From Bdellovibrionia bacterium (lineage in GTDB: Bacteria; Bdellovibrionota; Bdellovibrionia; Bdellovibrionales; UBA1609), in contig JAUILT010000027.1 in NCBI GenBank assembly GCA_030432925.1, forward strand, positions 1 through 34,783: a stretch of DNA of 34,783 nt, read 5' to 3'. The stretch's first letter is position 1. Each line of letters opens with the position of its first letter. The notes under the pieces were generated by a model. It was given only the letters and a program-made list of their open reading frames with translations, was not told the DNA's origin and did not search any database. Shown here piece by piece: positions 1,799 to 28,025 of the stretch. A program made the translations under genes and the position numbers.

Positions 1799-1901
1799 TT
1801 CAACAGTTTATGGCAGCCTCAACAGATTGAAAAGTCTGGATTTTTTGAGATTTATGAATTATAAAAAGCCCTACAAAGGTCGTGCTTTGAGTGCTCTTTC
1901 A

Positions 1902-2555
1902 ATGAGTGAGGTTGAGTTGATTAAAGTGAATGAAATTTTTTTTAGCATACAGGGTGAATCCTCTTGGGTCGGCCACCCAACAGTATTCGTCAGAACATCT
2001 GGCTGTCACCTGCGATGCACCTACTGCGACACGACTTATGCCTACTATGAAGGGCAACTCATGGGAGTTGAAGACATCTTACTGCAAGTACAACGATATC
2101 AGACAAAATACGTTTGTATCACTGGAGGTGAACCATTGTTACAAAAGGATGTCTTCTTGCTCGCTGAAAAGCTCTGTACTGATGAATACTTTGTTAGTGT
2201 AGAAACAAGCGGAGATCTTGACTGCACACGCCTGGATCCGCGAGTTAAAAAGATCATTGATGTGAAAACTCCTGACAGCGGAGCCCCTCATGCTTTTTGT
2301 AAAGCCAACCTGAATTTAGCTGATGTCAATAATGAATTTAAATTTGTCATCTGCTCCGAAAAGGACTTTGAGTGGGCTGAAAATTTTTGTGTAGAAAACG
2401 GTCTATTCAAAAAAACCAACGTTTTATACAGTCCATCGTACAGCGTTATCAGTGAAAAATGGCTTGCAAAAAAAATTCTTTCTTCTGCCTCAACTGCTCG
2501 CTTGCAATTACAGCTGCATAAGTATATTTGGTCTCCTACTGAACGGGGAGTGTAA
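1902..2555 (+). CDS. queE: 7-carboxy-7-deazaguanine synthase (radical SAM)
   Basis: QueE converts 6-carboxytetrahydropterin to 7-carboxy-7-deazaguanine, on the route to queuosine in tRNA. The N-terminus shows VNEIFFSIQGESSWVG, the usual QueE opening. It is followed by the radical SAM cluster motif CHLRCTYC (Cys35, Cys39, Cys42, spacing Cx3Cx2C) and the SAM-binding CITGGEPLL. The length of about 217 residues from this start fits the family. The frame is open further upstream, with a TTG at 1827 and an ATG at 1854, but homologues begin close to the VNEIF motif, so ATG 1902 is preferred. Ribosome-site evidence is weak for all candidates. No other queuosine gene is next to it; it precedes a Fis-like gene and dnaB on the same strand. 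Confidence 0.92.
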   Translation: MSEVELIKVNEIFFSIQGESSWVGHPTVFVRTSGCHLRCTYCDTTYAYYEGQLMGVEDILLQVQRYQTKYVCITGGEPLLQKDVFLLAEKLCTDEYFVSVETSGDLDCTRLDPRVKKIIDVKTPDSGAPHAFCKANLNLADVNNEFKFVICSEKDFEWAENFCVENGLFKKTNVLYSPSYSVISEKWLAKKILSSASTARLQLQLHKYIWSPTERGV

Positions 2556-2627
2556 ATAAAATTGCTCATTGACATTCCTTTAAGATAATGAAAAAAAACC
2601 GGTTCTTAATTTCTTACATCGGGGGGT

Positions 2628-2945
2628 ATGGGGCGTATGACTCCTAATCTGAATAACTCTGATAATTTATTTGTTGCCAACCTTCAGACGGTCAGTCTGG
2701 AAAACCTTGTTAAGAGCAAACTAGAAGTTTTGTTCCAACAAAAAGATGATGCTCAAGTTGAGCTGAATGGCTTGCATAAAGTTGTTATTGAGCAGGTAGA
2801 AAAACCTCTCATCGAACTGGCCTTGGCCAATTATAATGGCAACCAGGTACGCACTGCTAAAATGTTGGGAATCAACCGCAATACCTTGAAGAAGAAAATT
2901 GATACATATAAAATCCCTGTTCGAAGCTCCCAGATGACAATTTAG
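2628..2945 (+). CDS. Small Fis-type helix-turn-helix DNA-binding protein
   Basis: A 105-residue protein whose C-terminal half is a Fis/NtrC-type HTH (HTH_8-like). The segment from EKPLIELALANYNGNQVRTA through KMLGINRNTLKKKI carries the NQVRTAKMLGINRNTLKKKI pattern typical of Fis and of the C-termini of sigma54 activators. The N-terminal ~55 residues are not recognisable. No AAA+ or receiver domain is present, so this is a stand-alone DNA-binding unit, plausibly a nucleoid-associated or local regulator. ATG 2628 sits just after a GGGGGG run; ATG 2637 is an alternative start. It lies between queE and dnaB on the same strand. A 9-bp perfect inverted repeat (CAAAGCTTT) follows the stop. Confidence 0.8.
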   Translation: MGRMTPNLNNSDNLFVANLQTVSLENLVKSKLEVLFQQKDDAQVELNGLHKVVIEQVEKPLIELALANYNGNQVRTAKMLGINRNTLKKKIDTYKIPVRSSQMTI

Positions 2946-2955
2946 TAGGTTTTCT

Positions 2956-2983
2956 CAAAGCTTTTTTTGTTAGGAAAGCTTTG
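2956..2983 (+). other. Perfect 9-bp hairpin downstream of the Fis-like gene
   Basis: CAAAGCTTT (2956-2964) and AAAGCTTTG (2975-2983) are perfect inverted repeats with a T-rich 10-base loop. No T-tract follows on the plus strand, so it is not a standard intrinsic terminator. It could be an mRNA 3' stabiliser or part of the dnaB leader. Confidence 0.4.
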
Positions 2984-2997
2984 GTCAGGGGAGGCTC

Positions 2998-3039
2998 ATG
3001 AACAGGTTAAAAGGTGACTCAAGTTCCAAACTATACTGA
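2998..3039 (+). CDS. Possible 13-codon leader ORF upstream of dnaB
   Basis: An ATG at 2998 is preceded by AGGGGAGG, one of the best ribosome-site matches in the window, although the spacing is short (3 bases). It reads MNRLKGDSSSKLY and stops at TGA 3037-3039, inside a degenerate copy of the dispersed repeat. The peptide matches nothing I recognise. It could be a translated leader of dnaB or chance. Low confidence. Confidence 0.2.
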   Translation: MNRLKGDSSSKLY

Positions 3040-3050
3040 TCTAGTTTAAG
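3032..3050 (+). repeat. Degenerate copy of dispersed GATCCGG-TTTGAA repeat
   Basis: TATACTGATCTAGTTTAAG resembles the left arm and spacer of the better copies (TATACCGATCCGG then TTTGAA), with several mismatches. The right arm is not recognisable. It lies between the Fis-like gene and dnaB. It may be a decayed member or chance similarity. Confidence 0.3.
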
Positions 3051-3055
3051 CATCA

Positions 3056-3104
3056 GCGGGTGGTCTGTGTCTGCTCATCACTAGTTAAGGCCCGCACAGT
3101 TTTT
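3056..3104 (+). terminator. Possible weak terminator or attenuator before dnaB
   Basis: GCGGG (3056-3060) can pair with CCCGC (3091-3095). TTTTT follows at 3100-3104 and another T-run at 3109-3114. The loop is long (30 bases) and the stem short, so support is modest. It would end the upstream transcript or act in the dnaB leader. Confidence 0.3.
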
Positions 3105-3135
3105 AAAATTTTTTCTATGGTTTAATGGAGTTTTC

Positions 3136-4590
3136 ATGAATCAGAAGGTGCCACCTCATAATCTTGAGGCCGAACAGGCTGTCTTGGGTGGTTTGCTTAT
3201 TGAAGCTGAGGCTTGGGATGAAGTTGTAGATATCATCAGTGAAAGCGATTTCTATAGCCCCGCACACAGACAGATCTTTTCTGCAATGAAGGAACTCCAC
3301 AAAAAAAATAGTATTGTAGACCTTATCACCATCAATGATTACCTATTACAAAGCCAGCAACTCGATGCCGTTGGTGGCGTTCCTTACCTCAATGAAATTT
3401 TGGAGGCAACGACATCCACCGCAGGAATTACAGGCTACGCCAAAATTGTCAAAGAAAGGGCTCTGCTTCGTCAGGTCATACAAATGAGCCAATCCACCAT
3501 TGAAGAGGCCTTTTCATCTATAGAAGATGTCGATTCATTTTTGGATCGTGTTGAAGCCAAAATCTTTCAAGTTGCTGAGCAGAAAAATACGACAGGTCTA
3601 ATAGATGCCAGTGAGTTAGTAAAAGCATCTCTTCAAAAAATTGAAGAACTCTACACAAATAAAGCGACCATCACCGGAATACCTACTGGATTTAATGATA
3701 TGGATGACATGACAGCAGGGTTTCAGCCTGGAGAAATGATCATTCTTGCTGCTCGTCCCTCTATGGGAAAAACAGCCTTTGGGCTGAATGTGGCTTTGCA
3801 CGCCGCTATGAAAGAAAAAAAGAATGTGGCATTCTTTTCTGTGGAAATGGGAAAAGAATCTATAATGACCCGCTGCCTCGCAAGCTCTGCAAAGGTTCGG
3901 CTATCAGATATCAGGATTGGCCATTTGGACGATAAGGCCTGGCCGCGATTAATTAATACTGCAGCTACATTAAGTGATTCAGGTTTATTTATAGATGACA
4001 CTGCAGGAATCAGCCCTTTTGAAATTCGTGCTAAATGCCGTCGAATGAAAAAAAGCCATGGCTTAGACATGATTATGATTGATTACCTTCAACTGATGTC
4101 TATGAAAGAGCGATATGATTCAAGGGAACGAGAGGTTTCTGAAATTTCCAAGCTTCTTAAATCTATTGCCAAAGAGCTGAAAGTTCCCGTTATTGCCCTG
4201 GCCCAGTTAAACCGAGGGGTAGAGGGGCGAACCGATAAACGCCCTATGCTCTCAGACCTTCGAGAATCTGGGTCTATTGAGCAAGATGCTGATGTGATTA
4301 TGATGATCTTTCGAGAAGATTATTATGATCGTGAGAATCCAGACATTAAAGGCATTGCAGAAATTATTATTGGTAAACAACGAAACGGTCCTACTGGAAC
4401 CGTAAAACTGCGCTGGATTCCTGAATATGGGTTATTTGACAACCATATCCCAGTACCTGGGGCTCCTATGCCTGAAGCTCCTCCCCCAGGACCTCCTCAT
4501 CCAGGAGGATCAGCACCTTCAACCCCAGGGGGAAGTGCTGCTGCACCTAACTCAGCTGGGCCGCCGAACCTTGCCCCTGGTGGCCCCTAA
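3136..4590 (+). CDS. dnaB: Replicative DNA helicase DnaB with Pro/Gly-rich C-terminal tail
   Basis: Hexameric helicase that unwinds DNA at the replication fork. The N-terminal domain begins KVPPHNLEAEQAVLGGLL, the classic DnaB opening. The RecA-like motor follows, with Walker A ARPSMGKT (about residues 206-213), Walker B MIMIDYLQLM, and the ALAQLNRGVE and LRESGSIEQDAD motifs. The conserved core ends near GLFDNHI at about residue 438. Beyond it lies a ~45-residue tail almost entirely of Pro, Gly, Ala and Ser (PEAPPPGPPHPGG and similar), absent from E. coli DnaB (471 aa). ATG 3136 has GGAG at good spacing. A good terminator follows at 4649-4680, so dnaB probably ends its transcript. The function is certain; the tail is the odd feature. 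Confidence 0.97.
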   Translation: MNQKVPPHNLEAEQAVLGGLLIEAEAWDEVVDIISESDFYSPAHRQIFSAMKELHKKNSIVDLITINDYLLQSQQLDAVGGVPYLNEILEATTSTAGITGYAKIVKERALLRQVIQMSQSTIEEAFSSIEDVDSFLDRVEAKIFQVAEQKNTTGLIDASELVKASLQKIEELYTNKATITGIPTGFNDMDDMTAGFQPGEMIILAARPSMGKTAFGLNVALHAAMKEKKNVAFFSVEMGKESIMTRCLASSAKVRLSDIRIGHLDDKAWPRLINTAATLSDSGLFIDDTAGISPFEIRAKCRRMKKSHGLDMIMIDYLQLMSMKERYDSREREVSEISKLLKSIAKELKVPVIALAQLNRGVEGRTDKRPMLSDLRESGSIEQDADVIMMIFREDYYDRENPDIKGIAEIIIGKQRNGPTGTVKLRWIPEYGLFDNHIPVPGAPMPEAPPPGPPHPGGSAPSTPGGSAAAPNSAGPPNLAPGGP

Positions 4591-4616
4591 AGAACCACAG
4601 GCCGTTCACTCACATA

Positions 4617-4637
4617 TATAATTAATCCAGTTTGATT
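4617..4637 (+). repeat. Degenerate copy of dispersed repeat after dnaB
   Basis: TATAATTAATCCAGTTTGATT keeps the ATCCAGTTTGA core seen in the copy at 16620 (ATCCAGTTTGAATTTTCCG). No matching second arm is visible. It lies 27 bases after the dnaB stop. It is a weak member. Confidence 0.3.
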
Positions 4638-4648
4638 CGCTTAGTCGC

Positions 4649-4680
4649 AAAACGGTGCATCGTACTTTTTTGCACCTTTT
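4649..4680 (+). terminator. Intrinsic terminator of dnaB
   Basis: GGTGCA (4654-4659) pairs with TGCACC (4671-4676). An upstream AAAA and a downstream TTTT (4677-4680) can extend the stem around one unpaired C. The loop is T-rich. It lies about 60 bases after the dnaB stop codon. Confidence 0.7.
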
Positions 4681-4742
4681 GTCTAGTTCTGGGATTCTAC
4701 CTTGTGAATCTAGCTAACCGATTGCTTGAATAAGGGTGTCCG

Positions 4743-10872: not shown

Positions 10873-12516
10873 TTACTGATAAGCAACCGCTTGAACGTCA
10901 AATCCGTATTTATTCACACTGCTATCTGAGGTAAAACGAAGAGTGATTGTATCTCCTTCAAATACTGGGGAGAAAGAGTCATCAAAGCTTCCACTCATTT
11001 CACCAACCACTTCCATAGCTGCATCCAAAAACTGAACTTTGTCGTAACTTCTTTCTGTCTCAAAGCGACTGAAGTATATAGAAATCCGCGAAGCTCCAGG
11101 CACACTCACTGTCCACTCCTGAGAAAATGCATCCGTATAAGGATGTGGAGTAGAGATATTGTGCGTATTTTTATCCCAATTGAAGGGGTCATTCGGGTCT
11201 GCTGGAGCCGGTGTATCTGTTAAAGCATGATAAGCGCTTACGATACCGCCAGAAGCCACTTTGGAACGAATCGCACTCACTGGAGATGTTCTTCCAACAA
11301 TTCTTCGTTTCAAATCAGCCATAGAAATTCCAGGTACATGAGATAAAACCAGTGCAGCAACACCTGAAACGTGAGGTGTTGCCATGGAAGTTCCGGACCA
11401 GGACTTGTAGCCATCAGGGGTTGTGGAAAGAATTCCTACACCTGGAGCAGCCACATGAACTGTATTTCGTCCATAAGACGAAAAGCTTGCTAATCGTCCA
11501 TCACTATCAATGGCGGCCACGGAAATAATATTATCTACATCGTATGAAGCAGGGTAAGAGGGGTCTCGATCATTATTGGATTTAGAATTTCCAGCAGCAG
11601 CTGTAAATAGTATTCCAGCGTCTCTAGCTCTTTCAATAGAGGCCTTTAACTCTTCAGAAAAGCCGCCGCCTCCCCAAGAGTTGCTCATTACGTTCACTCC
11701 CATAAGAGTTGCATAATCAATAGATTTTATAGCATTAGCCAGAGTTCCGCTTCCGCTTCCTGTCAAGAATTTGATGCCCATAATCCTAACATCCCAAGCA
11801 ACACCGACAATACCTTTGCCGTCATTTCCCTTAGCACCAATGGTTCCGGAGCAGTGAGACCCATGTCCATGATCATCCATGGGGTCACCATCACCGTTGG
11901 CAAAATCATAACCATAGATATCATCAACAAAACCGTTTCCATCGTCATCCACACCGGCTTGACCGTTGAGTTCTGCATCGTTCGTCCACATATTGGGAGC
12001 AAGGTCTTCAATCGTGTGATCCACACCTGTATCAATCACAGCGATCACTACGTCACGACTTCCTGTTTCAAGTTCCCAACCTCTTTGAACATCTACATCT
12101 ATGCCTTCTCTACTTGTTACTTGGCTCGTTAAGTTAGACCCTGTGTTGATTAAGCCCCAAAGTTGGTCCAGCATAGGATCGTTGGGCAGAGCTTGAGTTC
12201 CACCATTGATGTCATATATATAGTTAGGCTCGGCGTTAGCTACCATTGGGTGACTCTCTAATGACTGAATAACAAACGACTCTCTCTCCAGTGCATTTTT
12301 TCTAACCAACACAGCCTTTGAAGCAGGGCTAATCTTTTCTACAACCTCTACGCCCAATGATTGACTGAGCTGTTGAACGCTCATTACTGAATGTGTATCT
12401 TTTAATTTTACGACGTATTCACCAGGTACAGCTTGAACACCCTTCTCTGCAATGGCAGACACTGAGAACACCAATGCTGTCGCAGCAATCACTTGTGTCA
12501 CTCTTCCTTGAAACAT
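10873..12516 (-). CDS. Secreted subtilisin-like serine protease (S8) with I9 propeptide
   Basis: A 547-residue preproprotease. Residues 1-~23 are a Sec signal peptide. Residues ~30-100 are an inhibitor I9-type propeptide (GEYVVKLKDTHSV, ending ANAEPNYIYD). The catalytic domain shows Asp162 (AVIDTGVDHT), His218 (HGHGSHCSGTIG), oxyanion Asn310 (TAAAGN) and Ser377 (SGTSMATPHVSG), so the triad is complete. The insertion VDDDGNGFVDD (about 189-199) looks like a calcium loop. After ~residue 430 comes a beta-rich C-terminal domain of about 105 residues, CUB-like in pattern (SYDKVQFLDA, GDTITLRFTSDSSVNKYGFD). TAGGAGT gives a good ribosome site before ATG 12516. The enzyme is exported and calcium dependent by family; in a predator it could degrade prey protein (inference). 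Confidence 0.95.
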   Translation of the reverse strand: MFQGRVTQVIAATALVFSVSAIAEKGVQAVPGEYVVKLKDTHSVMSVQQLSQSLGVEVVEKISPASKAVLVRKNALERESFVIQSLESHPMVANAEPNYIYDINGGTQALPNDPMLDQLWGLINTGSNLTSQVTSREGIDVDVQRGWELETGSRDVVIAVIDTGVDHTIEDLAPNMWTNDAELNGQAGVDDDGNGFVDDIYGYDFANGDGDPMDDHGHGSHCSGTIGAKGNDGKGIVGVAWDVRIMGIKFLTGSGSGTLANAIKSIDYATLMGVNVMSNSWGGGGFSEELKASIERARDAGILFTAAAGNSKSNNDRDPSYPASYDVDNIISVAAIDSDGRLASFSSYGRNTVHVAAPGVGILSTTPDGYKSWSGTSMATPHVSGVAALVLSHVPGISMADLKRRIVGRTSPVSAIRSKVASGGIVSAYHALTDTPAPADPNDPFNWDKNTHNISTPHPYTDAFSQEWTVSVPGASRISIYFSRFETERSYDKVQFLDAAMEVVGEMSGSFDDSFSPVFEGDTITLRFTSDSSVNKYGFDVQAVAYQ

Positions 12517-18600: not shown

Positions 18601-19259
18601 TGTTCAGAAAATACCTGCTACCTGTCCTTGTCTATTGGTTATATCGGCTGTTATTCATGACATGGCGAAAAACTATTGTGGAGGAGGAACCTCTCCGTAG
18701 AGCTATTGAAAACAACCAACCCATCATATTTGCTCATTGGCATGGCCATGAGTTAGCTATTACTTTTTTAGTTTCTAAATACAAATTGGCAACAATGACA
18801 TCTGTCAGTAAAGACGGTCAGTTGATTGATTATGTCATTCGCAGACTTGGGGGAGCCACCTCCAAGGGATCTTCTTCTAAGGGGGCCATTTCAGCACTTA
18901 AAGGCCTAATAAGGCTTATGAAAAAAGGACATCCTGCCAGTATGGCTGTGGATGGTCCAAGAGGTCCTATCTACCAGGTCAAACCTGGGGTTTTTGAGCT
19001 TTCCAGACTGGCCCAGGCTCAAATTTTTCCAGTGGGTGTGGCCGTTGGAAACCCCCTCGTTTTTGAAAAATCATGGAATAAAGCTATTCTGCCCAAGCCT
19101 TTTTCAAAAGTGGCTGTCTGTTATGGGGAACCTATCTCGACTTTAGACAAGTCCAAAAACCCCAAAGACATTAAAATGGCCAATGATTTAAAACAGCGCA
19201 TTTCTGATGCTTGCCAGCAAGCTTCCAAACTCATTGCTACACAAAAACCCGAGTGCTAA
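18600..19259 (+). CDS. DUF374 lysophospholipid acyltransferase family protein
   Basis: A 219-residue protein related to lipid A and lysophospholipid acyltransferases. It has an N-terminal hydrophobic segment (LLPVLVYWLYRLLFM). IIFAHWHGHE takes the place of the HxxxxD catalytic region. MAVDGPRGPIYQVKPGVFELS is typical of DUF374, as is IFPVGVAVGNP. It probably acts at the inner membrane on lipid or lipid A precursors. The acyl donor and acceptor are unknown. It starts on the last base of the etfA stop codon and is followed after 34 bases by a parvulin gene. The context, before envelope chaperones, suits an envelope role. Confidence 0.85.
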   Translation: MFRKYLLPVLVYWLYRLLFMTWRKTIVEEEPLRRAIENNQPIIFAHWHGHELAITFLVSKYKLATMTSVSKDGQLIDYVIRRLGGATSKGSSSKGAISALKGLIRLMKKGHPASMAVDGPRGPIYQVKPGVFELSRLAQAQIFPVGVAVGNPLVFEKSWNKAILPKPFSKVAVCYGEPISTLDKSKNPKDIKMANDLKQRISDACQQASKLIATQKPEC

Positions 19260-19293
19260 CCTTAAAGGCAATGCGCATCAAAGGGTTGTTATT

Positions 19294-20112
19294 ATGAGAA
19301 AAATTTTATTTTACCTGATTTTTTCGAGTATCTTCACCTTCACCGTTCAAGCACAGACTATCGTTGCGACTGTAGGAACCAAAAAAATCACTCTCAAAGA
19401 ATTCAATGAAAAATATGATGAAGTGAAAAAAAACACCATCAATGCTCCTGAACCAAAGCTTTTTTTAGAAGACCTGATTCGTTATGAAATGGGACTTCAA
19501 GAAGCAAAAAAAAGACGACTTGATAAAGACCCCATTGTCAGGGAGCGTTTCAATCAGGAACTTTACAAAGCCCTACTTGAAAAACAAATTGGTGATGAAG
19601 TTTCTAAAATTAAAATATCTGAAAAAGAAATGCAGGCTTACTACAAAAAAAATCCTGAACTGCGCCTCAGCCATATTCTGATTGAATTTAAACCAAATGC
19701 TTCTACAAAAGAGGTGAACGAAGCTAAAAAACGGGCCGAAGAGCTTTACGCCGAAGTTAAAAAAAGTAAGAGGCCTTTTGAAGATTTGGTGAAGTTGTAC
19801 TCCGACGACTCTCTCAGTAAAAACACTGGTGGCGATATTCAATATCAATCTCGAGTTACCATTGTTCCCCCAATTTATGAAGCTGCATTAAAAATGAAAG
19901 TGGGGTCTATCCGCGGAATCATTAGAACTCAATATGGATTTCATATTATTAAATTAACAGGAAAGAGAAGTTACCAACAGGCCAATAAAAGGCAACTCAG
20001 AGCCGCTGTATTTGACTTTAAAAGAAAGCGCATTTTTGATAAGTATTTTTCTGCGCTCTCCAAGAAATATAAGGTTCAGAGAAATCAGCAGGCTTTAAAG
20101 AAAGTGAAGTAA
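19294..20112 (+). CDS. Periplasmic parvulin-type peptidyl-prolyl isomerase
   Basis: A 272-residue SurA/PpiC-type protein. Residues 1-~20 are a Sec signal peptide (RKILFYLIFSSIFTFTVQA). An N-terminal helical chaperone region follows (KKITLKEFNEKYDEVKKNT). The parvulin domain covers about residues 125-225, with LRLSHILIEF, FEDLVKLYSDD, GGDIQY and QYGFHIIKLTGKR. Both conserved histidines are present, so isomerase activity is plausible. ATG 19294 is chosen over an earlier in-frame ATG at 19207 because it gives a proper signal peptide and has AAAGGG upstream. First of three tandem parvulin genes. Confidence 0.9.
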   Translation: MRKILFYLIFSSIFTFTVQAQTIVATVGTKKITLKEFNEKYDEVKKNTINAPEPKLFLEDLIRYEMGLQEAKKRRLDKDPIVRERFNQELYKALLEKQIGDEVSKIKISEKEMQAYYKKNPELRLSHILIEFKPNASTKEVNEAKKRAEELYAEVKKSKRPFEDLVKLYSDDSLSKNTGGDIQYQSRVTIVPPIYEAALKMKVGSIRGIIRTQYGFHIIKLTGKRSYQQANKRQLRAAVFDFKRKRIFDKYFSALSKKYKVQRNQQALKKVK

Positions 20113-20124
20113 AAGGATCCATCT

Positions 20125-21135
20125 GTGTCACTTTTAGAAGTTCGTGTTCACAGCACTTACTCTGTCGTAAGATGTGCAGGGTTTTTTATTTTTCTACTTG
20201 TTTTTACATCTTGCTCACCACAATGTACACCTGGAACACAATCTCTATCTAATAGAGTAGTTATTCAAGTGGATGACTCTGAAATGTCAGCTCAAGAGTT
20301 TGCTTCACGCCTTGCTGAACGATTAAAAAATTATGATGCTCTTGCTGTCAAAGAGGATCGAATTCTCTCCAAAGCCAAACAAGACATTGTTCGAGATTTT
20401 ATTTTAAAGGTGCTTACCGAAAACTGGGCTCAATCAAACCAAGTTATTTTGCGAAAAGAGGATATTGATGCTCAAATCAATGACATCCGTAATCAGTATC
20501 CTGATGATTTGACTTTTCGACAAAAACTCATTGAAGAAAATCTCACTTACGAAGAATGGCTAGAAAAAATGAAGTTCAGTCTTCTGCAAAATCTTGTTAT
20601 GAAAAAACTCATTGAAGATACTAAACCTCCTGAACAGAGTGAGTTAAAGGCTTACTATGAATCTAACAAGGATCTTTTTAAAAAAGCTCGACAAGTAAAA
20701 CTCCGTCAAATTGTTTTAAAAAATGAAAATGATGCAAAATCTATACGATCAGAAATCCACAAAAAGAAAAAACAAATGGAAGATCTAGCTCCTAAGTTTT
20801 CTATTGCCCCTGAAGGGCTTAATAAGGGAGAGTTAGGCTGGGTTGAGGAGGGAACTCTTGAAGTCTTTGACAAAGTCTTTGACCAACCAACAGGTTATTT
20901 AAGCGGTGTGTTAAAAAGCCCCTATGGTTACCATATCATCAAAGTTTTGGATAAAAGAAATGCTATGACAGTAAAGTTTGAAGATGTAAAAGACAAAATA
21001 TACAAAGTTTTCATACAGAACCGTGAGCAAGCAGCTTATTCCAAATGGTTGGAAAACGAAATCAGAAAGGCTAAGGTTATGAAAGACGAAGCCTTTATTG
21101 AAAATATAAAAATTGAAACTCGGGACGAATATTGA
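20125..21135 (+). CDS. Parvulin-like lipoprotein, active-site His apparently lost
   Basis: A 336-residue SurA-like lipoprotein starting at GTG 20125, preceded by AAAGGA. The hydrophobic N-terminus ends LLVFTSC with Cys30 as probable lipidation site (approximate lipobox). A SurA-N-like helical region spans about 45-175 (AQEFASRLAERLKNYD, EEWLEKMKFSLLQNLV). The parvulin fold at ~190-285 keeps GELGWVEEG and SPYGYHIIKVLDKR. Its first strand reads KLRQIVLK, where active parvulins have HIL. This suggests a chaperone without isomerase activity. The stop TGA overlaps the TTG start of the next gene by two bases. Confidence 0.85.
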   Translation: MSLLEVRVHSTYSVVRCAGFFIFLLVFTSCSPQCTPGTQSLSNRVVIQVDDSEMSAQEFASRLAERLKNYDALAVKEDRILSKAKQDIVRDFILKVLTENWAQSNQVILRKEDIDAQINDIRNQYPDDLTFRQKLIEENLTYEEWLEKMKFSLLQNLVMKKLIEDTKPPEQSELKAYYESNKDLFKKARQVKLRQIVLKNENDAKSIRSEIHKKKKQMEDLAPKFSIAPEGLNKGELGWVEEGTLEVFDKVFDQPTGYLSGVLKSPYGYHIIKVLDKRNAMTVKFEDVKDKIYKVFIQNREQAAYSKWLENEIRKAKVMKDEAFIENIKIETRDEY

Positions 21136-22085
21136 AACAGCTTATTTTAATTTTATTCTTAATAACAATACCTACAGTAACTCAAGCAGAAATTGTGGAA
21201 AAAATCGTGGCTATTGTGAATGATTCGATCGTCACTCTTTCTGACATTAATACATTCAAGAAAAAAGTACGGTCTGAGGGTCTCATTGATAGCGCTATTT
21301 TAAAAAACAAAAACCCAAAGGAAATGATCAAGGATCGTAATGCTATTATTGAACATCTTATCGACGAACAGGTCATTGATTCAGAAATTCGACGCCTAGG
21401 TATTGCTGTTACTATTGAAAAAGTAGAAGAAGAGATTCGATCTGTAACTAAAAGAAATGGTCTCAGTAGAGAGCAACTAAAGTCTGCATTGGGAGCTAGA
21501 GGAATAAAATTTTCAGACTACCAAGACTTTATCAAAACATCTTTGGAGCGCCAGTCTTTAATCGATCGCGAAGTTTCATCAAAAATAAAAATCTCTGACG
21601 AAGATATTTCAAACTTCTATTTATCTAAAAATAAAGGCGCAAGTGGGCAAATTTTTGAGTACAAACTCGCTCATATACTCATTCAAGATAATGTCAGTGG
21701 TGGTGTCTCTGCAAAAAAACGAATGCTTAATATTGTGAATAAATTAGAATCCGGAAATGAATCTTTTGAAAAACTCGCCTCTCAATATTCAGAAGATCCC
21801 AACTTTTCACAAGGCGGGCTCTTAGGTAGTTTTAAAGCTGGTGAAATGGTCAAAGAGTTTGAAAAAGGAATTGCCAATTTAGATGCAGGACAAACGTCAG
21901 GGGTGATTAAAACTCAATTTGGTTACCATGTAATTAAGGTTTTAAAGAAAACTCTTATTTCGGATCCTGCCATGGAATCACAAAAACAACAGATTCATGC
22001 CGTTCTCTATTCTCAGGCATTCAACCGTCAATTTCGAAAATGGCTAGATCGAAAGCGAGATGAAGCTTTTGTAAAAATTAATTGA
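21132..22085 (+). CDS. surA: SurA-type periplasmic chaperone/isomerase
   Basis: A 317-residue protein. It starts at TTG 21132; no other start leaves a signal peptide (KQLILILFLITIPTVTQA). The SurA N-domain is clear: EKIVAIVNDSIVTLSDI, then VEEEIRSVTKRNGLSREQL. One parvulin domain follows (YKLAHILIQD, FEKLASQYSEDPNFSQGG, LGSFKAGEMV, QFGYHVIKVLKK), against two in E. coli SurA. It helps outer-membrane proteins reach BamA in known systems. It overlaps both neighbours, so it is co-translated with the lipoprotein gene and pdxA. A shorter single-domain SurA is common outside gammaproteobacteria. Confidence 0.9.
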   Translation: MKQLILILFLITIPTVTQAEIVEKIVAIVNDSIVTLSDINTFKKKVRSEGLIDSAILKNKNPKEMIKDRNAIIEHLIDEQVIDSEIRRLGIAVTIEKVEEEIRSVTKRNGLSREQLKSALGARGIKFSDYQDFIKTSLERQSLIDREVSSKIKISDEDISNFYLSKNKGASGQIFEYKLAHILIQDNVSGGVSAKKRMLNIVNKLESGNESFEKLASQYSEDPNFSQGGLLGSFKAGEMVKEFEKGIANLDAGQTSGVIKTQFGYHVIKVLKKTLISDPAMESQKQQIHAVLYSQAFNRQFRKWLDRKRDEAFVKIN

Positions 22086-23025: not shown

Positions 23026-24393
23026 ATGAGCTACGAACCAGTAATTTTCAGGGAATATGATATTCGCGGTGTCTGGAATAAACAATTTGATGCTGATTTT
23101 GCCAGACTATTGGGGCGAGCCCATGTAACTTTTCTTAAAAAAGAAAGAGGTATAGAAAATCCAAGTTTATCTATTGGCCACGATGCCCGACTATCTAGCC
23201 CAGAAATTGTTCAGGCCCTATCTCAAGGTGTACGAGAGTCTGGTGGAAACGTTAAGCTGTTAGGTCTAGTTACCTCACCTATTAGTTATTTTACTACGTT
23301 CACTTTGAACATAGATGGTGCCTTCATGGTCACTGGTAGCCATAATCCCCCTGAGTTCAATGGTTTTAAAATTTCTGCCGGCAAATCCACTATTTTTGGA
23401 GAAGACATCCAAAAATTAAAAGTTATTATTGAAAATAACGATTTCTTTTTAGGTAGTGGTACAGAAGAAAAAATTGATATCTTTCCCTCTTATATCAAAA
23501 GATATAAAAATGAATTCTCAGAACTCAAAGATATTCCTATAGTTTTAGATTGTGGAAATGGTGCTGCTGGTTGTGTCGTACGGGAGCTTTTTGAGGCCTG
23601 TGGATTAAGTCCTACAATTCTATTTGAACAACCTGATGGAACTTTTCCTAATCACCATCCAGATCCAACCGTTGAAGAAAACCTTGGTGATCTAAAAAAA
23701 GCCGTAAAAAAACACAAGGCACAGGTTGGCATTGGATTTGACGGAGATGCTGATAGAATTGGTATCGTTGATGAAAAAGGAAATATGGTCTATGGCGATG
23801 AATTAATGTGCCTGTGCTCCACCGAAGTTTTAAAAGAAGCTGAAAACAAAACTATTATTGGTGATGTCAAATGCTCTGACAGAATGTTTGATTTTATTGG
23901 TAAGGCCGGCGGCAACCCTATTATGTGGAAGACTGGACATAGTCTCATTAAACAAAAAATTAAAGATGAGAATGCACCTTTTGGTGGTGAAATGAGTGGT
24001 CATATTTTTTTTGCTGACAGAAACTATGGATATGATGATGCACTTTACGCAGCATTAAGAGTGGTTGAGATTCTTGTAAAAACAGGAAAAAAAGTTTCTG
24101 AACTTCTCGAAGCATTACCGCCAGCTTACAATACGCCAGAACTAAGGATTGATACAACTGAAGAAAAGAAACACCAAATTGTTTCTCAACTCAAAGAGAA
24201 ATTCTTAAAGCCCTCTGATAATTATAAGGTGAATCTTATTGATGGAATTCGTGTCAGCTTTCCAAATGGTTGGGCTCTGGCGAGAGCATCTAACACTCAA
24301 CCCGTTCTCGTCTTGAGGTTTGAAGCTGATTCTCAGGACAATCTCAATTCCATCCGAAAGCAATTTGAGGATATTGTAAACCCCATGTTGTAA
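23026..24393 (+). CDS. Phosphomannomutase/phosphoglucomutase
   Basis: A 455-residue alpha-D-phosphohexomutase that interconverts hexose 1- and 6-phosphates for polysaccharide and LPS precursors. The phosphoserine is Ser105 in VTGSHNPPEFNGFK. The metal loop is GFDGDADRIG (Asp239, Asp241, Asp243). The sugar-binding GGEMSGH is at about 320-326, and the phosphate-binding RASNTQPVLVLR lies near the C-terminus. The start FREYDIRGVW is typical of AlgC/ManB-type enzymes, which act on both mannose and glucose phosphates. It begins 2 bases after the pdxA stop and probably ends this operon; repeat copy E follows directly after its stop. Confidence 0.93.
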   Translation: MSYEPVIFREYDIRGVWNKQFDADFARLLGRAHVTFLKKERGIENPSLSIGHDARLSSPEIVQALSQGVRESGGNVKLLGLVTSPISYFTTFTLNIDGAFMVTGSHNPPEFNGFKISAGKSTIFGEDIQKLKVIIENNDFFLGSGTEEKIDIFPSYIKRYKNEFSELKDIPIVLDCGNGAAGCVVRELFEACGLSPTILFEQPDGTFPNHHPDPTVEENLGDLKKAVKKHKAQVGIGFDGDADRIGIVDEKGNMVYGDELMCLCSTEVLKEAENKTIIGDVKCSDRMFDFIGKAGGNPIMWKTGHSLIKQKIKDENAPFGGEMSGHIFFADRNYGYDDALYAALRVVEILVKTGKKVSELLEALPPAYNTPELRIDTTEEKKHQIVSQLKEKFLKPSDNYKVNLIDGIRVSFPNGWALARASNTQPVLVLRFEADSQDNLNSIRKQFEDIVNPML

Positions 24394-24431
24394 GTATACC
24401 AATTCGGTTTGAACTTTCTGGATTGGTATAC
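24394..24431. repeat. Dispersed palindromic repeat, full copy E
   Basis: GTATACCAATTCGG (24394-24407) and CTGGATTGGTATAC (24418-24431) are inverted repeats with 12 of 14 pairs matched, around the conserved spacer TTTGAACTTT. It begins right after the TAA of the phosphohexomutase gene. No T-tract follows. Arm changes relative to copy A occur on both sides (AT for GA), which looks like compensatory change preserving pairing. Confidence 0.85.
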
Positions 24432-24571
24432 CTTAGACTCTATTCTCAAATAGGATTAAAAGCGAGTTCCTAAGAGAAAAGGTGTAAAAAACAAAGTCAA
24501 GCGGGTATTCCTTTCAATAAACTGCTAAAAATATGGAATCGATTCTACGAGGTCTGTATACTCCGTAGTCG

Positions 24572-25993
24572 ATGATCCCACTTTTTAAGACCCTTTTCTT
24601 ACTCCTTCTTTTAGTTATCGCAAATTCTGGATTTGCTAAGGATCGCCCATCAAAAATCAAAGAATTTGAGAACCGTTTAGACATAATAGAAGCTCTCTAT
24701 GGAGATCTCATTTTTGAAAAATTCGGAGCACCCTTAAAGATAAACAAAATGTGGAATGTGCGTCAGGTTTTCTTCCAAGCTGACGTTGATGAGGCAGGGG
24801 AGCCCAATATTTACTTAGGAGGTGGAGCCCTCATCCTCCCAAAATACACTCCAGACGTATTTACGTTAATCGTATGCCACGAAATAGGTCATCTCATTGG
24901 TGGAGCCCCTTATAAAACAGAACATCACTATTCATCGAGTGTCGAAGGACAAGCAGATTTTTTTGCTGCTAGCTGTACTTCAAAAGTATTTGAAAATAAA
25001 CGTATAATAAAAACTAAACCGCAATCCATTACGGACAGAGAAACTGATGAATTTTGCTCTCACCGTGATATCAAAATCGGTACTAATGATTCCTGTATGA
25101 GAATCATTCATGTTTTATCAAATCTGTTTTCTGACAATTTAAAAAAATCTGGAGATTTAAATTCTATATTAAATATGGAATTTCCAAAAATAGAACACAC
25201 ATTAAATCAACGACCATCAACAGTATGTCAGATTTATACATTCTTAGCTGCTCTTTCTGGTCTTGAACGCCCTTCTTGTTGGTATAAAAAGGAGGTCCGA
25301 ATTTTTGGAAATACTCCTATGCGAGAATTTCCCACTTTAGACTCAGATGCTCAAAAAGTTTGGAATTTTTGGGATCAACGTCTTTCTCTACCTTCTGGTC
25401 TCACCCCTCCTGAAATTTATTTCTACTCATTTCAACGTCATATTCAAACTAATGAGTTTACACAGTGGCAGTCCCATTGGCTTTTAGGAAATACAGATAT
25501 CTGGTCTGATTGGGCCGATTTAAAAAATAAGAATGGTCAATCAATGGAAATAACCAGAGAGTGGATTGTTAAAAATGTTTCTAGTATATTTCCTTTCCCC
25601 AAAACATTTTTAGCATTTCATTACGATAGAACTAATCGTATTCAAATGAACCCAGAAAGAACCATGCTATCTACTTATCAAAATGATCCCTATGGAATAA
25701 AAAGAGATTTTTTAGGCGCAGGTTACTACAGTATGGGCCATGAGATGCTCCATTATGCGCTTCAAGAGAAAGTTTCCATTCCGACAAAACTACATCATTG
25801 TCTTTTTGTGACACCTCATCCAGAAACTGGAAGAATGTTAATAGATGATATGGCTCAATTTCTTGTAGATGAAAAATTAAGTGCCACTTCTATGATAAAA
25901 ATGGGTCCTAGCAGCGAAACTAAAATGGATCCTTGTAAAAGGATGAATTCTGACGAGATAAGTCTCATTCAAAAAACTCTTAAATCTCTATAA
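24572..25993 (+). CDS. Secreted putative metalloprotease with two HExxH motifs
   Basis: A 473-residue protein with a Sec signal peptide (residues 1-~22, ending NSGFA). The first zinc-binding-like motif is CHEIGHLIGG (His103, Glu104, His107), followed by SVEGQADFFAASC, where Glu125 could be the third ligand, as in gluzincin-type HEXXH...E proteins. A second HExxH, GHEMLHYAL (His390-His394), appears in the C-terminal half, followed by LIDDMAQFLVDE (425-434). Several Cys pairs fit an exported fold. The two halves may be two protease-like domains, one perhaps inactive. The family is not recognised. No strong ribosome site is seen before ATG 24572. It converges with the pseudo-receiver gene, one base between stops. 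Confidence 0.75.
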   Translation: MIPLFKTLFLLLLLVIANSGFAKDRPSKIKEFENRLDIIEALYGDLIFEKFGAPLKINKMWNVRQVFFQADVDEAGEPNIYLGGGALILPKYTPDVFTLIVCHEIGHLIGGAPYKTEHHYSSSVEGQADFFAASCTSKVFENKRIIKTKPQSITDRETDEFCSHRDIKIGTNDSCMRIIHVLSNLFSDNLKKSGDLNSILNMEFPKIEHTLNQRPSTVCQIYTFLAALSGLERPSCWYKKEVRIFGNTPMREFPTLDSDAQKVWNFWDQRLSLPSGLTPPEIYFYSFQRHIQTNEFTQWQSHWLLGNTDIWSDWADLKNKNGQSMEITREWIVKNVSSIFPFPKTFLAFHYDRTNRIQMNPERTMLSTYQNDPYGIKRDFLGAGYYSMGHEMLHYALQEKVSIPTKLHHCLFVTPHPETGRMLIDDMAQFLVDEKLSATSMIKMGPSSETKMDPCKRMNSDEISLIQKTLKSL

Positions 25994-25994
25994 T

Positions 25995-28025
25995 TCATGC
26001 CGCTTCATCAGAAGAGTCTTCACTATCATTTTTTTCTGATTTGACCTTAGTTATTAATTCATAAACAAGAATTTCAGCAACATACTGTTTAAATTTTTCA
26101 AATTCATTCTTATTTATATGGAGACCTGATGCTCCTCCCTCTTTAGATATAAGTTTTTCTTTTTGTCTAGGAAGAATCTTAGATCCTGCATTTAAATATT
26201 TATAAAAGCGATCATTCTTTTTTAAATATATATACGAATTAACATTAATAGGAAATTGGGTGGATAAATGTACTGCACTTATTCTTGCCATATCAGAAGA
26301 TTTATCAGAATCCTGTAAATGAGGAATCCTACTTTTCGTAGGAACAAATGTAACCGCTATCTCTTCTGGTCCAGATTGTTCAAAAATAGTGAAGTTTTCT
26401 ATTTTTTTCGAAAATTGGTCTAAATCAAAATTTTCAGTTTCTACAAAAAATGATTTTTGACAGTGAACATTTATTCCTTGTGAGGCAAGTTGTTTTTCAA
26501 CGGCCTCAGAAAGGACTTTTAGAAAATCAATATCAGGCTTAAGGTCAACTCTACCTCTTCCAACAAGAAAGTATCCATGAATTTTTTGTGAATCTACTGG
26601 AATAACCCCAACTTTTTCAATTTCTTTAATTTCAATTCGTACATTTGGATCAGGATTTTTACAGCTTTCCTTTAGTGCTCTATGAACACTCTCTTTAAAC
26701 TTATCCTCTTCTTCACTTAAAATTTTTCCTTCGGCAACAATACTTTCAGAAAAATTTTTTTTATTTTTTGTATTCCCTATGCTATCAAGTGTTTCTTTAT
26801 TAGAAATTTTATTTACTCCATATTCCTCATTTTCTCCTGACATCTTTTTATTTATTTTCTCTGAAGAGTTTTGATTAAATTTCTTTTTTTGTTTTTCTTC
26901 AGCAGATAATATATCTTCATCTCTTTGTTTCTTTTTTTCTTCCATTTCAGAAATGTGTACATTATTTTTAGATTTTTCTCCATGTTGAATGTCAAAACGA
27001 GGCTTTGATTTTTTTCCTTCAGAAATTAGTGGGTCATCTGCATCTGGCTGAAATTTATTTCTTTTTTGATTTATTTCAAAAGTAGCTCCAGGTCTGTTTT
27101 TTTGATTTTTAATAGGAATATCTTCTTCATCTTTTTGTTTTTGCCAAGGAAAGGCTTTCTTTTTAGATTCTACTCGAGCTTTTTTTGCGCTTTTTTCCTC
27201 TTCTGTCATTTGAGAACCAGAATTTTTTAGTACATTTTGATAATAAGAACTTTCGCTCTCTTTTAATTCTGAATCTTCACGATTCATATGATCTTTTTTC
27301 TTCTCTGAAGGAGTTAATTTTTCAGTATGATTATCCTGTTTTTTAATTGGATCAAGGTCTTCTCCTGAACTGAGCTTTCGTAACATTTCTGCTGCTGAAA
27401 GGTTCATATTAGATTTCTTTTCTTTTTCTTGAATATCTTTGAGCTTGGTTCTTACTGATCCAGATAATGGAGCTTTACGACTATCAGAACTTTCACCTGC
27501 AATTTTAATTGTAGATTTTGACTTACTCCCTTTCACTTGTATGGTGTTATCTTCATCTTTGCCAGATTTTTTTGCCGAGCCTGAAATGGATTGAATTTCC
27601 TGTGGATTATAAATTCCATCCAAAGTCTGTCGGATAAATCTATGAAGACTTGGTCCACTAGGAAATCCAGTAAATTTATATTTAAAACGAGATTTATTAA
27701 GTTTATTGATGGATATAGCTCCACCATCTTCAGTAAACCCTATACAAATGGTATTAAGAGTTTGAGCTAAAAGTATAGGAAGCCTAGATACATTTGGATT
27801 GGGGTGATCGACACTAATCATTACAATATCTGGCGACTCTTTAACAATTGTTGCAATAGCTTTAGATATGCTTCCAGCACAACTTGTTGGCCAACCTCTT
27901 CTTGTTAGAAACTGAACTGAGTTATTTAAGGAATCAGGATTTTTAGCAATAATAAATATATTAACTTCCAATTGATCAATATCAACTGGTTCCTGTTTGT
28001 TCTGTTTTTGATCATCAGAACTCAT
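25995..28025 (-). CDS. Pseudo-receiver protein with long charged linker and C-terminal domain
   Basis: A 676-residue cytoplasmic-looking protein in three parts. Residues ~20-138 resemble a response-regulator receiver, but the phosphate-accepting Asp is replaced: PDIVMISVDHP has Ser71 where PDLVLLDxxMP has Asp, and the acidic pocket is missing. Residues ~145-435 are a low-complexity linker very rich in Lys, Glu, Ser and Asn, probably disordered. The C-terminal ~240 residues are folded, with IEIKEIEKVGVIPVDSQKIH and a tail FPINVNSYIYLKKNDRFYKY. The tail recalls the N-terminal region of some HD-GYP proteins (weak). The DNA is very AT-rich compared with the left half of the window. Function is unknown; a scaffold or signalling role is inference. 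GGGAATGGA precedes ATG 28025. Confidence 0.8.
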   Translation of the reverse strand: MSSDDQKQNKQEPVDIDQLEVNIFIIAKNPDSLNNSVQFLTRRGWPTSCAGSISKAIATIVKESPDIVMISVDHPNPNVSRLPILLAQTLNTICIGFTEDGGAISINKLNKSRFKYKFTGFPSGPSLHRFIRQTLDGIYNPQEIQSISGSAKKSGKDEDNTIQVKGSKSKSTIKIAGESSDSRKAPLSGSVRTKLKDIQEKEKKSNMNLSAAEMLRKLSSGEDLDPIKKQDNHTEKLTPSEKKKDHMNREDSELKESESSYYQNVLKNSGSQMTEEEKSAKKARVESKKKAFPWQKQKDEEDIPIKNQKNRPGATFEINQKRNKFQPDADDPLISEGKKSKPRFDIQHGEKSKNNVHISEMEEKKKQRDEDILSAEEKQKKKFNQNSSEKINKKMSGENEEYGVNKISNKETLDSIGNTKNKKNFSESIVAEGKILSEEEDKFKESVHRALKESCKNPDPNVRIEIKEIEKVGVIPVDSQKIHGYFLVGRGRVDLKPDIDFLKVLSEAVEKQLASQGINVHCQKSFFVETENFDLDQFSKKIENFTIFEQSGPEEIAVTFVPTKSRIPHLQDSDKSSDMARISAVHLSTQFPINVNSYIYLKKNDRFYKYLNAGSKILPRQKEKLISKEGGASGLHINKNEFEKFKQYVAEILVYELITKVKSEKNDSEDSSDEAA

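Follow-up and report, generated by a model that had tools for sequence, protein, structure and literature searches.

A probable gene fusion of two zincin-like families in a predicted exported protein of a Bdellovibrionia bacterium

The gene and its chromosomal surroundings

The stretch of DNA analyzed here (the window; 34,783 nucleotides of contig JAUILT010000027.1, assembly GCA_030432925.1, from a Bdellovibrionia bacterium) contains an open reading frame with an ATG start, which encodes a protein of 473 amino acids. Within its own genome (a 3.04-Mb assembly in 172 contigs, 96% complete) this protein is present as a single copy, and its N-terminus, MIPLFKTLFLLLLLVIANSGFA, resembles a signal peptide as judged by eye. 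Searches of Pfam, NCBIfam and the PDB sequences with the whole protein yielded nothing above noise, so that the earlier statement that no known family can be assigned holds for the window protein itself. Similarly, a contig scan with this protein as single query gave no relative. The features of the gene are the following:

24572..25993, plus strand: 473-residue open reading frame, predicted exported two-domain zincin-like protein
24572..24637, plus strand: probable signal peptide, residues 1-22 (by eye: K, a Leu-rich stretch and GFA)
24653..25291, plus strand: N domain, residues ~28-240, gluzincin-like, of an order-wide secreted family (profile searches)
24878..24892, plus strand: HEIGH, residues 103-107, putative first site (H103, E104, G106 and H107 invariant in 23/23 rows; model residues 84-88)
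24944..24958, plus strand: EGQAD, residues 125-129, with E125 as probable third zinc ligand and a conserved D129 (both invariant in 23/23 rows; E125 is model residue 106)
25277..25291, plus strand: CWYKK, residues 236-240, closing the N domain at the fusion junction (R233, P234, C236 and W237 invariant in 23/23 rows)
25292..25990, plus strand: C domain, residues 241-473, of a rare second zincin-like family (profile searches)
25739..25753, plus strand: HEMLH, residues 390-394, putative second site (H390, E391 and H394 invariant in 8/8 rows; model residues 155-159)
25793..25801, plus strand: HHC, residues 408-410, with H408 or H409 as candidate third ligand and C410 as possible disulfide partner of C455 (invariant in 8/8 rows; model residues 173-175)
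25844..25849, plus strand: D425-D426, acidic pair, present and unconserved (columns LDSAGSKD and ADAQAAPS in eight C rows)
25934..25936, plus strand: C455, invariant cysteine of the C domain (8/8 rows)

The two HExxH motifs, E125 within SVEGQAD (residues 123-129) and the acidic pair are thus found where the preliminary description had placed them. When the protein's own residues were shuffled 20,000 times, at least one HExxH arose in 512 shuffles and two or more in six. Stronger evidence than this chance control is provided by conservation, as each HExxH is invariant within its own family.

The gene stands between pgm (23026-24393, plus strand) and a convergent gene (25995-28025) for a protein of 676 amino acids, which has no Pfam match, a Lys/Glu-rich middle and a GC3 of only 0.16, and which lies beside pgm in several relatives. 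Matches to pgm and to the 676-residue gene adjoin in eight of the 23 related genomes searched. The gap between them measures 8-143 bases in six of these eight and holds another gene in the other two, namely that for a 254-residue protein without Pfam match (G002) and that for a 555-residue subtilase (G006); in the window it measures 1,604 bases. The congener G001 has 92 bases at the place of the window gene, and in three genomes (G037, G038, G039) both matches lie on one contig, about 4-6 kb apart. The near-empty gap in relatives suggests that the two-zincin gene was inserted in this lineage or, alternatively, was lost in the others. The boundary of pgm and the 676-residue gene (24394-25994 in the window; L188:236-1903) carries the two-zincin gene in the window and the subtilase in G006 and is nearly empty in most relatives seen, and it is possible that it represents an insertion spot for exported proteases. 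Elsewhere in the window, a subtilase (Peptidase_S8) with a fervidolysin-like prodomain and a CUB domain is encoded at 10873-12516, and three genes for PPIC/SurA-like prolyl isomerases follow each other at 19207-22085.

Two families and their junction

A search with the whole protein against 58 related genomes gave matches in 34 of them, and almost all of these, apart from the window itself, fell within residues 4-251. On the C side, G015 gave two strong matches and G035 one, all three at residues 236-469, and G020 gave a weak one at 364-436. N-only matches lay in open frames of about 210-460 amino acids and C-only matches in frames of 241-308 amino acids. Profiles of the two halves separate cleanly into two distinct families, which supports the earlier suggestion of two peptidase-like domains. 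Both were modelled with AlphaFold2 apart from each other, the N domain from 23 and the C domain from seven rows; a combined full-length alignment was left unused for modelling, as the ends of N-family rows were misplaced onto the C domain. Both predicted models are compact and confident, and in both the invariant HExxH is located on a helix. For the C domain (pLDDT 86.8, pTM 0.87) HEMLH lies in helix 148-166, which is followed by helix 170-178 with H408-H409; for the N domain (pLDDT 83.2, pTM 0.84) HEIGH lies in helix 75-90, while E125 opens helix 106-121.

The C family is rare. Profile searches found it in five of 140 genomes of the order and, at E 0.01, in six of 368 genomes of the phylum. 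A wider profile reached 13 of the 368 at E 0.1, comprising the same six strong and seven doubtful matches; the latter (E 0.015-0.096) were not counted, six of them lying in open frames of 25-56 amino acids, most with stops. The bacterial records are L061 and L063 (RHO3_bin_33), L062 (RHO2_bin_34), L064 (Jr-03apr18-63), L065 (nzgw168) and L066 (HKST-UBA12), assigned to Bdellovibrionales, Bdellovibrionaceae or Oligoflexia, and an eighth member is located on a phage contig (L139). Three of the C-bearing genomes are indicated to be G015, G035 and G020, from the window's own taxonomic family. The C-type frame of G130, seemingly the genome of L062, is interrupted by one TGA. N genes are also present in two of five C-bearing genomes checked. 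Around the lone C genes (six loci, plus the window) no neighbour was common to several loci, with two isolated pairs only. Following E391, no Glu or Asp is conserved in seven or more of the eight C rows, and H408 and H409 are conserved instead. The acidic pair D425-D426, previously brought up as acidic residues behind the second motif, is a poor candidate for a metal ligand as it is not conserved, and the invariant H408-H409 appear better suited.

Neither model reached E 0.001 in a Foldseek search against the PDB (best E for the C model: 0.8), and VIA-align was used as a second look at Foldseek's list. For the C model its best row was ERAP1 (Z 8.0, rmsd 4.3, 148-151 residues aligned), and M30 lugdulysin (Z 7.1) and collagenase G (Z 6.0) were also among the rows, which were mostly zincins. 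The rows of the N model, again mostly zincins, had M13 and M48 types on top (Z 9.2 down to 7.2), led by an M13-like Haemonchus glycoprotein, neprilysin and PepO (Z 9.2-8.6, rmsd 3.7-4.7) and followed by BepA (Z 7.6), although Z values of 8-9 may indicate no more than a shared general arrangement.

It appears somewhat unlikely, yet would be compatible with a two-domain protein, that the C domain derives, as an exported branch, from the SprT-like fold and not from a gluzincin line. When the eight-row C profile was compared by hhalign with three SprT-like proteins of relatives, a probability of 58% was obtained (E 9.9e-5 for this single comparison), with the HExxH and the following His aligned, whereas the N profile as control gave 5%. 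Two of the three SprT-like rows have their next His 13-14 residues after HExxH, and H408/H409 follow at 14/15. On the other hand, none of five C members matched the SprT-like model PF10263 in Pfam at E 1, and there was no match to PF10263 in the protein's own genome at E 0.001. SprT is also absent from the VIA-align rows of the C model, which excludes nothing.

The N family is widespread, unnamed and secreted-looking, with proteins of mostly 240-340 amino acids. An alignment of 23 rows (the window and 22 rows from 21 of 27 phage loci) has as invariants, among others, H103, E104, G106, H107, G111, P113, E125, G126, D129, C219 and the C-terminal R-P-x-C-W, which lone N proteins carry as an RPxCWY motif near their C-terminal end. 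The resulting pattern is HExxH-x17-E-x3-D, and the earlier proposal of E125 as third ligand of the first site is well in line with this spacing and with the invariance of the residue. One candidate from the N profile, a 629-residue open reading frame in a C-bearing genome (L032:15016-16905), contained HEVLH but none of the N-family motifs and was dropped.

In an N tree of 65 rows (the window, 42 bacterial rows and 22 from phage contigs; L049, L050, L078, L080, L087, L090, L091 and L093 were left out as copies or, among the last six, which are from phage, partial sequences, and L032 as off the family), the window has by far the longest branch, 3.2 compared to a median of 0.39, and no supported neighbour. 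Moreover, it lacks the near-invariant family residues N67, R88, H214, Q218, R220 and D222 (23-row alignment) as well as the family cysteine at 230 together with its loop. The long branch and the lost residues suggest that the window's N domain may function differently or no longer function at all, though its putative catalytic residues are kept. Only one half might then be an active protease, with the N domain a decayed zincin or one repurposed for binding or folding. We consider this unlikely, as the retention of H103, E104, H107, E125 and D129 and of the cysteines 102, 135, 162, 175, 219 and 236 would not be expected if the N domain were decaying freely.

The window protein is most likely a gene fusion of two families that otherwise occur as separate proteins: N and C are joined in this protein only, and the C family is elsewhere always found without an N domain. 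At the junction the N domain ends with RPSCWYKK and the C domain starts with EVRIFGN. In L064, a lone C protein, this sequence comes after a signal-like stretch (..TWNAQAVTLLGN). The start of the C half hence corresponds to that of lone C proteins after removal of their signal peptide, and no further signal peptide is present. The GC contents of the N and C halves are 0.361 and 0.358 and their GC3 values 0.28 and 0.26, nearly equal to the values of the neighbouring pgm (GC3 0.28). As the fusion was seen in one genome only, which is split into 172 contigs, and as the congener is nearly empty at the same place, an assembly artefact of a fragmented genome has to be considered. It is, however, very improbable: no stop interrupts the frame across the junction, which separates two complete domains, a second signal peptide is missing from the start of the C half, and this position together with the matching GC and GC3 favours a true fusion over a misjoin. 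That both motifs form one shared metal site, as the preliminary description had also proposed, or stem from an internal duplication would fit with two zincin-like halves in one chain, but is extremely unlikely, since each half occurs alone with its complete motif set and the halves show no detectable homology (hhalign of the N against the C profile: probability 1.7%), for which reason duplication was rejected.

Phage relatives and the proposed role

The N family is present on 27 IMG/VR contigs. The phage nature of two contigs is marked by PHROG amidase matches and that of a third by a major head protein; the others are phage according to the IMG/VR classing. On the N tree the phage label needs six changes, at least three of them by starred branches, which suggests that exchange between phages and bacteria took place more than once or that some labels are wrong. 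Amidase_2 was found in ten of 28 phage records searched (27 with N, one with C), and 17 of the 27 N-type records gave no such match. Seven of the ten have it on the strand of the N gene and 159-1,364 bases upstream of that gene, two have it at a distance of 30-51 kb, and L076 has it at the opposite contig end; L076 also encodes a papain-like C1 protease and two zincins in tandem. Six of the seven close cases have a papain-like C1 protease between Amidase_2 and the N gene, so that an Amidase_2 endolysin, a papain-like C1 protease and an N-type zincin form a co-directional cassette (L067, L068, L074, L086, L087 and L089, at about 1850-4720 of the locus). Under crude uniform placement, the chance of seven close placements in ten is 5e-10, or 4e-7 for five in eight without two near copies, values which overstate independence because the contigs are related. 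The C-type phage gene (L139:9956-10420) encodes a compact protein of 154 amino acids with a signal-like N-terminus and is located 2.3 kb downstream of an M15/PHROG endolysin, between it and a minor tail protein. Searches of a phage collection with the window protein and with the phage C protein, and of plasmids with the latter, gave no match. One N-type zincin from a phage contig (L083:3839-5086, 416 amino acids, without Pfam match over its whole length) continues beyond a proline-rich linker with an additional C-terminal part; judged by eye, this tail resembles a CAP/SCP domain. A literature search on phage lysis cassettes that pair a zinc metalloprotease with an endolysin found none, which does not imply absence from print.

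Taken together, the product of the window gene is probably an exported protein that acts on envelope proteins and in which gene fusion has brought together two independent zinc-protease domains of the zincin type. The ligand geometry at both putative zinc sites is inferred. In the N domain zinc would be bound by H103, H107 and E125 with E104 activating the water, and in the C domain it would be bound by H390, H394 and either H408 or H409 with E391 in the activating role. The conserved cysteines would pair as disulfides outside the cytoplasm. The weakest step concerns the target, which might be proteins of the cell envelope, be it that of prey, of competitors or the cell's own. The idea rests on export and on the phage neighbours, as some phage N relatives lie in cassettes of amidase, papain-like protease and zincin and the phage C relative lies behind an endolysin; such neighbours tell nothing direct about the chromosomal protein. 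To our knowledge, no activity or metal binding is known for any member of either family.

More tentatively, and with less confidence than in the two-domain reading as such, the C domain could found an unnamed exported zincin family (HExxH-x13/14-H, HHC and two invariant cysteines) in relatives of predatory bacteria and in a phage. The window protein would then be a two-headed envelope protease, in which this domain is fused to a zincin with phage cousins in an amidase/papain-like protease/zincin lysis cassette. If the C family is a His-ligand zincin, the zincin tribe gains a type. Two zincin-like families are described for which the searched libraries gave no match in the window protein, and in the phage cassettes a cell-wall amidase stands together with proteases of two kinds.

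Comparison with known zincins

The N domain resembles the gluzincins of the M13 (neprilysin, PepO) and M48 (BepA) types in its HExxH-x17-E-x3-D pattern, in the combination of a motif helix with a Glu helix and in the M13 types coming first in the fold comparison. The glutamate of M13 and M48 peptidases does not follow close behind HExxH, unlike that of the N domain. Further differences are that no family model matches the window protein and that the domain has six family cysteines and the C-terminal RPxCWY. The Peptidase_M48 model of Pfam is touched by five of 16 N members (best E 7.5e-5), with no match for the window protein. Compared to the gluzincin motif HEXXHX(8,28)E, as worded in PMC9266454, E125 follows after 17 residues and hence within the range of 8-28, whereas the C domain has no conserved Glu after its HExxH in the eight rows. 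The metzincin motif HExxHxxGxxH, as it appears in a reference title, is present in neither half (HEIGHLIGGAP and HEMLHYALQEK).

The C domain shares with SprT-like proteins and SPRTN (PF10263), the latter of which acts on proteins crosslinked to DNA (PMC7782752), an HExxH followed by a His at similar distance and a weak profile similarity, but differs by being predicted as exported, by its HHC motif and by the lack of a Pfam match. M1 aminopeptidase catalytic domains (ERAP1, ERAP2, APN) make up most of the top VIA-align rows for the C model (Z 8.0-6, rmsd 3.2-5.8); here the differences are the missing conserved Glu after HExxH and an identity of about 10%. A literature search on proteins with two HExxH motifs found none, which again does not imply that there are none in print. 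Two-domain ACE (M2) contains two HExxH sites in one chain, which originate from duplication. The halves of the window protein, in contrast, are not detectably homologous, and the protein represents a defined case of two unrelated predicted zinc sites in one exported chain.
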